This document shows positions 18,906 to 23,452 of a stretch of 26,058 bases of DNA, one piece after another (position 1 is the stretch's first letter; every line of letters starts with the position of its first letter). The position numbers and the translations under genes were made by a program. This DNA is from a virus. The DNA lies in IMG/VR virus record IMGVR_UViG_3300020156_000075, positions 1 to 26,058 of that record, one strand, 5' to 3'. Below the pieces are notes generated by a model that saw nothing but the letters and a program-made list of their open reading frames with translations, searched no databases and had not been told where the DNA came from.

Positions 18906-19352
18906 TTAGTGCTCCGTTGAGTTTCTTTTATCCATCATTGCGATTTCATCAGCAAGATCACCAGCTTTAACATTTGTTACGGAACCAGTAGCAAAGTCTA
19001 CCAATGCCGTGTCATGATCTATGTCAACCTTTGGCATAGAACCGAGAACTTTTCTTGCGATGTCGGCAAACACCTGCAATTGCTCTTTTGTAGGCGGTCC
19101 ACTACCGATACTAACTTGGAAATCAACCATAGCTGACAAAGAGACAGCAGCCATTACATGTAGATAGAATGCAATAGCCTCTGCTGTCGGTTTCTGAAAT
19201 TCTTTCATAACAACTGTCTGCGTGACAAGTTCATTCGTAATACGAACGATTTTTGCCATTGCTACAGCATGGTTCTGCTGCATCGATAGCATTTTAGAAG
19301 TATCATTGAATGCGTCTTGTACGTCACTAATAGTAATAGGAGTAGGTTTCAT
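18906..19352 (-). CDS. Hypothetical protein
   Basis: A 148-residue mostly helical protein I do not recognise. Its N-terminal half has repeated amphipathic helices (DVQDAFNDTSKMLSMQQNHA; AMAKIVRITNELVTQTVVMK), and its middle holds a hydrophobic helix (FYLHVMAAVSLSAMVDFQV), perhaps buried in an oligomer rather than a membrane. The C-terminal part is acidic. Its start overlaps the MazG-like gene stop as ATGA with GGAGA upstream, and its stop lies just before the ATPase start, so it is part of the leftward operon. Confidence 0.65.
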   Translation of the reverse strand: MKPTPITISDVQDAFNDTSKMLSMQQNHAVAMAKIVRITNELVTQTVVMKEFQKPTAEAIAFYLHVMAAVSLSAMVDFQVSIGSGPPTKEQLQVFADIARKVLGSMPKVDIDHDTALVDFATGSVTNVKAGDLADEIAMMDKRNSTEH

Positions 19353-19723
19353 CGATTGTCTCCATCGCCTTGCACAGTACCACGCGCCTTCCGATCACGT
19401 AGTTTCTCGATATTACTTTCAGCAGCTTCACTAAGCTTAAAGCCTAGTAATTGCGTCAGTTCTGATACGTACCAAAGAACATCGCCACATTCATCTAGGA
19501 TTTTCTTGCGTACTTCATCATATGCCTGAGCACCTTTGCCTTCGTAGTCGCCTCGAACAATCTTCTTAATCTTACCGGCGACTTCACCAGCCTCACTGCA
19601 TAGTCCTAGAGAAAGATACTCAAGAGCTTTGTCTTGTGAGTACACAGCAGTCTTACGTGTAGCAATCTGGTAGTCGTCGAAGTCGTTACCATTGGGATCG
19701 TTTGGAAAATCTAGTCCGAACAT
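19349..19723 (-). CDS. MazG-like nucleoside triphosphate pyrophosphohydrolase
   Basis: The 124-residue protein carries the all-alpha NTP pyrophosphohydrolase signature: LSLGLCSEAGEVAGKIKK with E44 and E47 (ExxE), then KILDECGDVLWYVSELTQLL with E78 and D81 (ExxD), and a final NIEKLRDRKARG motif. These acidic residues bind magnesium. Family members cleave NTPs or dNTPs to NMP plus pyrophosphate; phage versions are proposed to clear non-standard nucleotides or (p)ppGpp. Placed with the polymerase and the dNMP-kinase-like gene it fits nucleotide-pool control. The start follows GAGG. Length is typical for a single-domain MazG-like phage enzyme. Confidence 0.88.
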   Translation of the reverse strand: MFGLDFPNDPNGNDFDDYQIATRKTAVYSQDKALEYLSLGLCSEAGEVAGKIKKIVRGDYEGKGAQAYDEVRKKILDECGDVLWYVSELTQLLGFKLSEAAESNIEKLRDRKARGTVQGDGDNR

Positions 19724-19725
19724 AA

Positions 19726-19980
19726 TTACCTCACATAGTTAATGATATCGACCTCGATCGTCGGCTTACGCTTGACAAGCCGGGCCGCTTCAACAATTAC
19801 CAATTCCTTACAATTAGCTTGTCCTTCAATAATAAGTGCGGCATCCTCTACTGCGTCATCAATCGACTTATACCATTTACGCGTATTAGATTGGTGATTA
19901 AGTACACCGCTAATTGCCGACGTTGCAAGGATCGTATAACGATGCTCGTCGTCCGGCTTACTTGCCTTTTCCTTTGCCAT
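19726..19980 (-). CDS. Hypothetical protein
   Basis: An 84-residue protein with a basic/acidic N-terminus (MAKEKASKPDDEHRY) followed by an alpha/beta region: ATSAISGVLN, SIDDAVEDAALIIEGQ, ELVIVEAARLVKR and a final strand VDIINYV. It may be a small alpha-beta fold that handles a nucleotide or protein partner, but I recognise no motif. It overlaps the upstream membrane-protein stop as TAATG. Confidence 0.6.
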   Translation of the reverse strand: MAKEKASKPDDEHRYTILATSAISGVLNHQSNTRKWYKSIDDAVEDAALIIEGQANCKELVIVEAARLVKRKPTIEVDIINYVR

Positions 19981-20171
19981 TATTCTTTTTCCTTTTTAAT
20001 ACAGACTGGTCTAGGACTGTCACCACCGCCCTGTTGTATCCAAGTTCCACCGGCATTGACACAAGTTTCAAATGCTTTCAACATTGTTTCGTTTGTTTGT
20101 TTGCAGCTATATGCCATCGCTAATATTAGACAGATAGCCACTAGGCCACCCATAATTGGACCTGCTATCAT
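19980..20171 (-). CDS. Small single-TM protein
   Basis: The 63-residue product has one hydrophobic segment (about residues 3-20, AGPIMGGLVAICLILAMA) followed by YSCKQ and a polar tail with Cys37 and Cys57 in a C-x-AGGTW-x-C-like pattern, likely a disulfide if exported. The ATG at 20171 is chosen over a GTG at 20177 because it overlaps the stop of the zinc-ribbon gene as ATGA and has GGGG upstream. The role is unknown; small early membrane proteins in phages often modify host functions. Confidence 0.62.
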   Translation of the reverse strand: MIAGPIMGGLVAICLILAMAYSCKQTNETMLKAFETCVNAGGTWIQQGGGDSPRPVCIKKEKE

Positions 20172-20320
20172 GAACACCCCGTTGTTTCACCGCAAACTGT
20201 ACACAGTAAACACGTTCCGTTTCGGATCATTTTATAATTATCACAGAAATGACATTTATCACCAGTGTATAAAGAATGCTCCTGTTTCACAGGCTCTTTA
20301 TCTTTTTTAGATTGCTCCAT
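20168..20320 (-). CDS. 50-residue zinc-ribbon protein, class II RNR C-terminus-like
   Basis: A short gene between the polymerase and the membrane protein. The start at 20320 has AGGGA upstream. It overlaps the polymerase 3' end by 34 bases and the next start as ATGA. After a Lys/Glu-rich N-terminus it has CHFC (Cys23, 26), then RNGTCLLCTVCGETTGCS (Cys37, 40, 43, 49). The CxxC plus GTCxxCxxCG-x4-CS layout resembles the zinc-binding tail of adenosylcobalamin-dependent ribonucleotide reductase (NrdJ), where the cysteines help re-reduce the active site. Here it stands alone, with no reductase gene in the window. A general zinc-ribbon regulator is the alternative. Confidence 0.65.
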   Translation of the reverse strand: MEQSKKDKEPVKQEHSLYTGDKCHFCDNYKMIRNGTCLLCTVCGETTGCS

Positions 20321-22836
20321 CGATGTATCCCTAAGTCGTCCGGCGCACTCATTGCTAGGTCTGCCGGGATAATGAGAGGCTCACCTTGAACCATGATCGG
20401 TTCTTCGGCGTGTTCCTTCATGATGGCAAGGCACCCTTTCAAGAGGTTCAATGGAGCAAGGCAAATCAGGGCATCATGGATATTGAGGACAATACGGGCA
20501 ACCGACTTAGGCCATCTTTCATCGTCGTGGCATTGATAAATCACTCGACTTACCTTATCTCCGATGGTAGATTGAGGCTTGAAAGCGACGATGCTTTCTA
20601 ACGCTTCCTCGGTGAGCCGTTCGAGAATGAACAAACGACGCCCATATGCGTTGAACAGCATACGGGTATCCTTGACCTCCTTCTCAAGCCTAGCCCACCA
20701 CTTACGAAGTTCAGGATTGATCCGATGGTAGAGCATGTAAGCCTCATGAGCCTTCATACTGGAGAGCCCGGTAGTCTCAGCGAGCCTATCAGCGGCCATC
20801 CTGTAGTTGAGCCCATGCCGACAACGTTTAGCGATGAACCTTACGGTCTTGTCCCCCTCGACTGTTTCGTCAGCGGTGGGTACTTGGTCGTAAGGTATGT
20901 TGAACATTGTTGCAGCGAGCGAACGGTGACAGTCAAAGCCCCCGTCTAATCTCGCTTTCTCAAAGTCAGCTTTCCAGCTAGGTATGTTAGCATCCCAGCC
21001 GACGTACCTAGCTTCTGCCTGTGACAAGTCGAAATAGCCAAATCCATACTGCAACATTTGTTCAGGGTCTAGCTTCTCTTTAGCTACACCATTGGCTTTC
21101 GCAATCAACTCAGCAAGTTTATCATCCAGATCAACCTTGTCGGCGATGAACATATTCTTCGCACGACTAGGCTGGTTCTGCATGTTCATTCCGGTGCCGA
21201 TGAGAGTTTTTGCGGATGACAATCTTCCCGGTGCGGATTGCGTACCAGTTTGTTTCCACTCACATCTGATCCGGTTGTCTGCGTCGATCTTACTTTCTGC
21301 ATAGGTACTGAGGAATTTATGTTCTTTACTATATTCGTTGTGTAGAGTAAGAACTTTTCTAGCTGTCTCAGGTGTTCTTGGATGGTCGAACATCCGCTTG
21401 CGATTTGCTGCATCTGTGCTAGTTCCCCTTCCAACAAGTTTAAGTCTTTGGAAGTAGAGTTCAGAACGTGCAGGCGTAGAGTTAGGATTTGGGCTGTAAT
21501 CGCTGTCACCTGTAGCTTCTTGAACAGCTTTGTGGAACTCTCTAAGTTTCTCTGCAACTGCCTCTTGTAGTTCTGTTGTAATTCTGTCTTTGATTGTGGC
21601 ATCTATCAACACTCCGCCAACTGTCATCCTCACTAGGTGAGGTTGTAGCCTCATGATATGTTCGAAGAAGAACTTGTCTAATCCTTGGGCTTCGAGTTCT
21701 TTCTTGAGTTTGATTTGGATCGCCCTAGTAATGCATACGTCTGTGATGTTGTATCGCCAATAAGCTTCAATGTCACCTTTGTCTTTCCATTCGGTTCGTT
21801 CATCCTTGTAATATGGGTGGTTGGTATACTGTGTACATAGATACCCAAGATCATGGGGGAGACGGGGATATAAGCAGTGGTGAGCCAGCATCGTATCGAA
21901 CCACGCTTTGTGGACTTGTATTTTATCCTTAAGCCAGAGCCAATACATGTCGAAGTTAGCGTTTTGGGCAACAAACTTGTTCTTCGGGTTGGCGAACATT
22001 TGTTGCAGCCGCAGCCGAATTTGAACTTCTTCATCGAGAGTATAGTAAGGCTCACCACGGATGCCTCTAAGTGGAATTGTACCCCCTCGATACATATCGA
22101 CTGCAAGGCCCACACAGGAAGTCTCGTTGCCTCCTGTTTCAATGTCAAAGCTGATTGGTTCTCCGCTCTTTTCAATCTCACCAATGAATTCAATTGCTCT
22201 ATTGGCTTCTGTGATGATTTCGCCATCGATCTTATACTCCTTCCATTTTCCAGATGTTACAATAGGCAGTTTCGCACAGTCCATGATGAAAGTGATTTCA
22301 GTCTTTGGTTCTCTTACAACCATCGCTGGATTATAAGTTGCGACCGCGCGATATGTACGGGGCTGCGAGGCCGCCAAGGACATAATTTCAAAGTCCAAGA
22401 CTGATCCTCTCCATTTGGTGATCCCTTTACGATCACATAAAGCTTCCAGTGCCATATTACCAAGACACAGAACATACTTAAGGTTAGGTAGACATGCCAA
22501 TTCCCAACGCAGTAGTGCATACCAATGATCTTTTTCATTCTTAGGTAGCTGTATCTTCTCCGTACTCTCGGCGCCACCATATGCCAATTGTTTCTTACAT
22601 ACGTTAGTGACATACACCTCTCTCCGAGTGATGTTATGCTTTCTCAAAGTGTTCCATAGCAATTGACCACTACCACCAACAAGCGGAACCTTCATCTGTA
22701 CTTCACGTGATCCCGGAGCCTCCGCAACGACGGCAATCTCTGCGTTGAAAATGCCGTCCATTGCGCAGTCAACGGTTAGTCCAAGTGCACTAGCTCTGCG
22801 CTGGTACTCTTGAGACAGTTCCGCTAAATTGTTCAT
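20287..22836 (-). CDS. Family A DNA polymerase with N-terminal uracil-DNA glycosylase-like domain
   Basis: The 849-residue protein fuses two units. Residues 33-190 resemble family 4/5-type uracil-DNA glycosylase: AEAPGSREVQMKVPLVGGSGQLL (39-60) and YNPAMVVRE (168-176) match the two active-site motifs, but the iron-sulphur cysteines are not all evident. Then come a 3'-5' exonuclease (FDIETGG, D231/E233; NANFD, D296; YNITD, D366) and a polymerase with TGTQSAPGRLSS (530-541), motif A FDLSQAEAR (D603), motif B RFIAKRCRHGLNYR (667-679) and motif C NIHDAL (D788). It should replicate the phage genome. Motif C has Ala where Glu is usual. Its start overlaps the upstream kinase gene by 47 bases. Confidence 0.93.
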   Translation of the reverse strand: MNNLAELSQEYQRRASALGLTVDCAMDGIFNAEIAVVAEAPGSREVQMKVPLVGGSGQLLWNTLRKHNITRREVYVTNVCKKQLAYGGAESTEKIQLPKNEKDHWYALLRWELACLPNLKYVLCLGNMALEALCDRKGITKWRGSVLDFEIMSLAASQPRTYRAVATYNPAMVVREPKTEITFIMDCAKLPIVTSGKWKEYKIDGEIITEANRAIEFIGEIEKSGEPISFDIETGGNETSCVGLAVDMYRGGTIPLRGIRGEPYYTLDEEVQIRLRLQQMFANPKNKFVAQNANFDMYWLWLKDKIQVHKAWFDTMLAHHCLYPRLPHDLGYLCTQYTNHPYYKDERTEWKDKGDIEAYWRYNITDVCITRAIQIKLKKELEAQGLDKFFFEHIMRLQPHLVRMTVGGVLIDATIKDRITTELQEAVAEKLREFHKAVQEATGDSDYSPNPNSTPARSELYFQRLKLVGRGTSTDAANRKRMFDHPRTPETARKVLTLHNEYSKEHKFLSTYAESKIDADNRIRCEWKQTGTQSAPGRLSSAKTLIGTGMNMQNQPSRAKNMFIADKVDLDDKLAELIAKANGVAKEKLDPEQMLQYGFGYFDLSQAEARYVGWDANIPSWKADFEKARLDGGFDCHRSLAATMFNIPYDQVPTADETVEGDKTVRFIAKRCRHGLNYRMAADRLAETTGLSSMKAHEAYMLYHRINPELRKWWARLEKEVKDTRMLFNAYGRRLFILERLTEEALESIVAFKPQSTIGDKVSRVIYQCHDDERWPKSVARIVLNIHDALICLAPLNLLKGCLAIMKEHAEEPIMVQGEPLIIPADLAMSAPDDLGIHRWSNLKKIKSL

Positions 22837-23452
22837 TGCACCATTCCGTTATGACTTTGGTAGCCTCTTTATAGAAGGCTTCCTTAGTCGAATTGTTACC
22901 GATATCCACAGCCTTAACACGTAACGGAACATTGAACAGATAAGAGCGACTGTCGCCCTCATATGTACAACCGTCACGCCCGATGCGGATCAATCTCACT
23001 TTACCGGGGTGCAACTCTTCAAGTGCTTCTAGTTCTTCGTAAAACCCGCTATCAGAAATGATGTACAATTGTTTAGGGTCTTGCCTGATGAACTTACCCT
23101 TAGACCGAGTAACATAACGTTCGATCTTCTTACCTAACATAGTTCCGAAGATACCATTGCCAAATGTAGGCTTAGCCCATTCTTCTGACATTGTAATAAG
23201 AGAGCGTCGGATCGATTGATTGTTAGGTAGTAGTCCGGGAATGTTCTTATTAAACTCTAGTTCATCCCTTGAGATATCTAGGAATGCTGAGAGCGCATCC
23301 TTTATTGGTTCCGCGAACTTCTCGTGATAAACCAATGTACGATGCTCGCCAAACATATAGAAAGGATGACCATTGAATGCAATGTATTCAGCTAAAGTGT
23401 CCTTCCCGCATCCCGGTGGGCCATTCAAGACTACGACCAGATAGTTGCTCAT
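22790..23452 (-). CDS. P-loop kinase, deoxynucleoside monophosphate kinase-like
   Basis: The 220-residue protein starts MSNYLVVVLNGPPGCGKDT, a Walker A motif (GPPGCGKDT, residues 11-19) right after the first strand. The GKDT form plus the phage replication setting resembles dNMP kinases (T4 gp1-like) that phosphorylate dNMPs for DNA synthesis. A later SEEWAKP segment (about 90-96) and IISDSGFYEELEAL region fit such a fold; the latter may carry the DxxF/E part of the nucleotide site. GAGG lies seven bases upstream. It works in the same pathway as the MazG-like enzyme and the polymerase. Other small P-loop kinases are possible. Confidence 0.75.
   Translation of the reverse strand: MSNYLVVVLNGPPGCGKDTLAEYIAFNGHPFYMFGEHRTLVYHEKFAEPIKDALSAFLDISRDELEFNKNIPGLLPNNQSIRRSLITMSEEWAKPTFGNGIFGTMLGKKIERYVTRSKGKFIRQDPKQLYIISDSGFYEELEALEELHPGKVRLIRIGRDGCTYEGDSRSYLFNVPLRVKAVDIGNNSTKEAFYKEATKVITEWCNEQFSGTVSRVPAQS

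Follow-up and report, generated by a model that had tools for sequence, protein, structure and literature searches.

The window is a stretch of 26,058 nucleotides, positions 1 to 26,058 of the IMG/VR virus record IMGVR_UViG_3300020156_000075. It contains a short standalone gene at 20168..20320 whose 50-residue product belongs with the zinc-ribbon tail of class II ribonucleotide reductases (RNR) of the NrdJ type. An earlier note on this DNA had given the same location but no strand; the minus strand carries the gene. Its translation, read from 20320 to 20168, is MEQSKKDKEPVKQEHSLYTGDKCHFCDNYKMIRNGTCLLCTVCGETTGCS. The six cysteines (C23, C26, C37, C40, C43 and C49) stand exactly in the order CxxC-x10-CxxCxxC-x5-C, as had been described from the letters. 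A Shine-Dalgarno-like AGGGA (20328..20332, minus strand) is located 7 bases 5' of the ATG. The ribosome site claimed by the earlier note is thus present, but it is moderate rather than strong. The start of the gene falls within the end of the polymerase gene, with an overlap of 34 nt, and its stop codon overlaps the ATG of the next gene in the sequence ATGA, so that the reported coupling can be read directly.

The tail gene is part of an operon. The upstream gene (20287..22836, minus strand) encodes a fusion of a uracil-DNA-glycosylase-like domain with a family A DNA polymerase (Pfam UDG, DNA_pol_A_exo1 and DNA_pol_A), and the N-terminal part of this polymerase resembles family 4 of the uracil-DNA glycosylases. 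The ATGA-coupled gene downstream (19980..20177, minus strand) encodes a small protein that is hydrophobic near its N-terminus, for which profile searches gave no family at a useful E-value. A MazG-like nucleotide pyrophosphohydrolase (19349..19723, minus strand; PF03819, E 4.4e-10; phrog_229, E 4.1e-35) and a deoxynucleoside monophosphate (dNMP) kinase-like gene (22790..23452, minus strand; phrog_139, E 3.1e-34) share the operon, in which the order is polymerase, tail gene and then MazG. Profile searches also found a RecD2-like helicase and a primase/helicase-like gene there.

The identity of the short protein is given by its end. Its last 44 residues correspond to positions 1179-1222 of the 1222 positions in NCBIfam NF005736, the alphaproteobacterial vitamin-B12-dependent ribonucleotide reductase NrdJ, at E 2.3e-11, which is not a chance match and marks the short gene as real. 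The match runs end to end at the extreme C-terminus of the enzyme. A second NCBIfam match, to positions 921-960 of 960 in NF005122 (E 2.6e-7), is of the same kind. As the protein consists of the tail alone, its whole-protein NCBIfam scores fall far short of the curated cut-offs. A Pfam scan returned no family up to E 10, and a sequence search of the PDB returned no RNR tail, the best match having E 0.17; in neither was there a better match to another zinc-ribbon family. The protein therefore has the features of the C-terminal zinc finger of class II RNR, namely a profile match to the last residue of NrdJ and six C-terminal cysteines in the order CxxC-x9/10-CxxCxxC-x5-C. This evidence supports the view, already proposed in the earlier note, that the gene encodes a detached NrdJ zinc-finger tail as a separate protein.

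The zinc-ribbon domain covers residues 20-50 (20171..20263, minus strand) and reaches the free C-terminus. Across 81 tails, C23, C26, G35, T36, C37, C40, C43, G44, G48 and C49 are invariant, and the AlphaFold2 model shows a hairpin of the zinc-ribbon kind with pLDDT 88-92 over residues 21-50. A fold search with this model found only generic zinc ribbons, ribosomal proteins being the best and none reaching E <= 0.001, and it is uninformative on function. In NrdJd of Stackebrandtia nassauensis, a class II RNR in which these residues were mapped by experiment, Cys920, 923, 936 and 939 are the proposed zinc ligands and Cys933 and Cys945 the proposed redox pair (PMC5704485). By alignment, Cys23, Cys26, Cys40 and Cys43 (span 20192..20254, minus strand) are the predicted zinc ligands of the window protein, and Cys37 and Cys49 (span 20174..20212, minus strand) the predicted redox pair. 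The protein may thus bind zinc and cycle a pair of redox cysteines.

Two known systems are close enough for comparison. In class II RNRs the tail returns the active site to its reduced state, and in S. nassauensis NrdJd tails serve the active sites of other subunits (PMC5704485). The reductant TCEP acts on the active site only by way of the tail (PMC5704485). The tail of that enzyme and the window protein are alike in having six cysteines in identical order at the extreme C-terminus, with a spacing of 3-10-3-3-6 in NrdJd and 3-11-3-3-6 in the window protein. The NrdJd tail, however, lies within an enzyme of 947 residues with a cysteine-rich domain (CRD) of about 230 residues, whereas the window protein consists of the last zinc finger only, encoded by a gene of its own with no enzyme alongside. 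The part of the tail is taken in Pseudomonas aeruginosa by NrdJb, a separate subunit that performs thiol-disulfide exchange in trans (PMC4520616) and resembles the window protein in that the tail has its own gene. This subunit, however, has 229 residues, contains an IscU/TSCPD-like domain and is encoded in one operon with nrdJa. The 50-residue window protein has no IscU/TSCPD-like domain according to Pfam, and there is no nrdJa beside its gene, the upstream gene being the glycosylase-polymerase fusion. The complete class II RNR of Bradyrhizobium phage BDU-MI-1 (KY940711) is a third point of reference; over its last 35 residues this NrdJ shares 65.7% identity with the window tail, which, unlike it, stands alone.

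The earlier note had suggested a search for nrdJ elsewhere in the genome. The NrdJ catalytic barrel PF02867, and any other RNR catalytic domain, is absent from the window record, which is a 26-kb linear fragment, so that nrdJ could lie in the remaining genome. The DNA polymerase links 13 other records to the window, including five of 43-47 kb, and neither an RNR domain nor a tail gene was found in them. In most of these relatives, MazG follows the polymerase within about 100 bases; the window lineage has therefore probably gained the tail gene and the two small genes that follow it. Whole records picked for standalone tails were also searched, and an RNR catalytic domain was found in 0 of 62 (50, a further 11 and the L106 record; among the 50, L061 is doubtful and the frame of L060 is cut by its stretch), although most of these are fragments and an RNR may lie elsewhere in some of the genomes. 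It was detected in all 13 control records with full NrdJ, which were searched together with the last set of standalone records. The absence of the catalytic domain from the window, its relatives and the other records makes action on a host enzyme the main reading.

Free tails of this kind recur in unrelated phages. The first alignment was too divergent for a scan of the collection, and DNA patterns were used on IMG/VR instead. The pattern scans gave at least 138 reading frames ending in an NrdJ tail, of which at least 55 are full NrdJ, at least 20 are cut by contig ends and at least 63 are short and complete. After exclusion of two spurious reading frames (L128 and L104) and one doubtful frame (L061), at least 60 complete short reading frames remain, in at least 44 clusters at 90% tail identity. 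In the complete viral pattern scan, 39 of the 80 readable matches are standalone, 31 full and 10 cut. Two named phages belong to the group: Microcystis phage Mae-JY30, with a 78-residue standalone tail (XAI96317.1) in a complete genome of 61.7 kb, and EBPR siphovirus 2, with a 104-residue standalone tail (gp40) in a partial genome. An RNR catalytic domain is absent from both the complete and the partial sequence, and three phages with full NrdJ from the same search do have it. Both tails stand alone as the window protein does, but XAI96317.1 has a longer N-terminal extension and a different genome context, and gp40 has histidine in place of threonine before the first redox cysteine. A survey of Bacteroidota, the phylum of L155 and a single phylum to which the phage hosts may not belong, found the tail in 277 of 395 cellular genomes. 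Among the matches listed, nearly all of these tails are in frames of at least 930 residues, and the few shorter frames mostly lie close to the end of a contig or have a full copy next to them.

The surroundings of the standalone tails are varied. Replication, DNA-modification and ParB genes are frequent around them, a weak observation from raw frequencies, and no common partner gene was found among their neighbours. The tail genes of L034 and L106 sit among structural genes. The prophage-like L035 has a neighbouring DNA polymerase III beta gene, with Rhizobium phages among the closest matches, which gives only hints of an alphaproteobacterial host. For contigs of 30 kb or more, the median length is 58.7 kb with a standalone tail and 94.0 kb with full NrdJ (p 0.013), a difference that is only suggestive because the length of a contig need not equal that of the genome.

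The N-terminal parts of the standalone tails are mostly dissimilar to one another. In L052 (4646-5212), a dATP/dGTP pyrophosphohydrolase domain (PF04447, E 3e-14) is fused to the tail. L080 (5019-5681) carries a TSCPD domain and a tail in the manner of NrdJb, and L144 (2467-3072) a TSCPD-like part and a tail at a weak E of 0.025; both contigs are large, viral and free of an RNR catalytic domain, and the layout of the two proteins is nearer to NrdJb than that of the window protein, weakly so in L144. The smallest tail genes have only about 31-34 codons and start 2-4 codons ahead of the first cysteine. Such NrdJ-tail microproteins of about 31-34 residues are encoded at L133:8535-8630 and L064:1844-1939, and in L041, L145, L106 and L034. 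The genes in L133 and L064 have clear ribosome sites and are antisense to both flanking genes. Upstream of position 173 in L106 and of position 206 in L034 is a tiny cysteine-rich reading frame, MDRCTGDCCCNCGGK and MEKDKDCGCGCDCK respectively, its end overlapping the start of the zinc-ribbon gene in ATGA in the former and GTGA in the latter. The standalone tails of L043, L084, L032, L065 and L127 have in common an N-terminal segment that contains cysteine and finishes with a CxC...CP motif; L032 has no Pfam match.

The six cysteines and the free C-terminus of these tails are conserved. In the complete scan, the pattern placed no demand on the codons of Cys37 and Cys49, yet both redox cysteines are present in 39/39 standalone, 31/31 full and 10/10 cut frames. 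A third scan, in which a stop codon after the motif was not required, again gave 82 stretches, with identical listed loci. The equal number of stretches with and without the required stop indicates that the free C-terminus is under constraint.

Selection was measured on the last 33 codons of standalone tails, in relatives of the window gene, which has no close homologue. The tails of L112 and L114 differ by 15 synonymous codon changes and 1 nonsynonymous change, and those of L083 and L156 by 13 synonymous and 0 nonsynonymous changes, with the remainder of the latter proteins diverged. In several standalone families, dN/dS of the tail is near zero and the N-terminal parts are diverging. These relatives of the window gene are under strong purifying selection. 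A pseudogene reading of the standalone tails is ruled out by this selection together with their recurrence. In a tree of the tails (41 columns), the standalone ones are interspersed with those of full NrdJ, with a minimum of 17 changes between the two states, at least three of which are forced by well-supported branches. Most forks of the tree are not resolved because the columns are so few. The window tail falls, with weak support, beside the full-NrdJ tails of the Bradyrhizobium phage BDU-MI-1 kind.

The most direct interpretation is that the window protein acts in trans as a redox tail on a class II RNR of the host, stimulating or sustaining it; we give this about an even chance of being correct. 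Zinc held by Cys23, 26, 40 and 43 would order the chain and bring Cys37 and the C-terminal Cys49 together. The free tail would then enter the active-site cleft of the host NrdJ, re-reduce the disulfide left by each turnover and be recharged by whichever host system charges the enzyme's own tail. The dNTP supply of the host would in this way be kept running, or run faster, during phage replication. This scheme supposes docking of the tail on the host NrdJ, a host with a class II enzyme, and stimulation rather than inhibition as the outcome. The retention of both redox cysteines in a search that did not demand them argues for a redox tail. The action of such tails across subunits (PMC5704485) and the separate NrdJb (PMC4520616) argue for action in trans. 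The pyrophosphohydrolase fusion of L052 and the surroundings of polymerase, MazG and dNMP kinase-like genes also speak for it, and the link to dNTP metabolism, drawn by the earlier note from the gene's position, may be right. Against it stand the structural-gene locations in L034 and L106, the absence of NrdJb's IscU/TSCPD-like domain, by which the affinity for the enzyme may be weak, and the failed complementation in S. nassauensis, where the separately expressed full cysteine-rich domain aggregated and did not restore activity (PMC5704485).

The same conservation would be seen in a decoy or brake, a competitor recognised by NrdJ or by its reductant. A free tail might fill the cleft of the host enzyme or drain its reductant, slowing or redirecting it, for example so as to shift the nucleotide pool or evade defence. 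The minimal tail, moreover, has no IscU-like domain, which could have allowed it to substitute fully. There is no sign of inhibition, however; a simple plug would not need the two redox cysteines kept in every standalone tail, and surroundings of replication genes better fit dNTP supply. We regard a decoy as unlikely, and a little more unlikely an adaptor that is charged by the host's NrdJ-reducing system and hands electrons on to some other protein of the phage or the host. The fusions to unrelated N-terminal parts, including the dNTP pyrophosphohydrolase of L052, and the siting of some tails among structural genes speak for an adaptor, but the standalone tails have no common partner gene nearby and their sequence remains that of an NrdJ tail.

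The earlier note had also allowed for a reused zinc ribbon. In one form of this reading it would be a purely structural module, binding nucleic acid or protein after loss of its redox role. The fold search, with its generic ribbons and ribosomal ones at the top, agrees with this; the redox pair in 39/39 standalone tails, found without ascertainment, and the lack of a match of the window protein to any other zinc-ribbon family in Pfam make it improbable. Slightly more improbable is that the phage encodes an NrdJ of its own, outside the fragment at hand, and that the window protein serves it. The window is a fragment and split nrdJ genes exist (PMC4520616; PMC3653736), but no RNR was found in the 43-47 kb relatives, the 62 standalone-tail records or the complete Mae-JY30 genome. 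The patchy presence of the tail gene and its absence from the polymerase relatives might recall the decaying remnant of a captured nrdJ. With strong purifying selection, repeated changes on the tree, and own start and ribosome sites even in genes of 32 codons, such a remnant is very improbable.

Phages carrying whole ribonucleotide reductases are already known, and split tails are known as well in the form of NrdJb. No description of free-standing NrdJ tails in phages was found in open-access full texts. To our knowledge, tails without any partner gene, mostly without an IscU-like domain and widespread in phages, are new. A broader proposal, to which we give slightly less than an even chance, is that free NrdJ zinc fingers, down to 31-34 residues, are widespread and have arisen repeatedly, and that phages whose size leaves no room for a class II RNR take over or tune that of the host by providing its redox tail only. 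If this is true, a phage that relies on the host for the enzyme and supplies just the redox tail would control dNTP synthesis in its host at very low cost and in a new way. Which reductant feeds tail-bearing class II RNRs in the cell is not known (PMC5704485). A natural, minimal, isolated tail could be a handle for finding it, as separately made domains have so far aggregated or been poorly soluble. Annotation is affected too. The Mae-JY30 protein XAI96317.1 is publicly annotated as class II ribonucleotide reductase, which hides its tail-only nature, and gp40 of EBPR siphovirus 2 as RNR alpha; counts of phage RNRs that include tail matches would therefore be inflated.

A further observation concerns the overlap of the polymerase and tail genes, which contains a slippery heptamer, A_AAA_AAG, in the polymerase frame (minus strand, 20308-20302). 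The chance of such a heptamer, given the protein and the codon usage, is about 7%. In the relatives, the protein sequence at this place is much alike, with AAG AAG where both lysines are kept. Nothing stands out in the hairpin downstream of the heptamer (z -0.85 over 51 nt; -2.4 over 33 nt that were chosen). A -1 slip at this site would give a polymerase-tail fusion protein, a possibility that we mention as a lead only.
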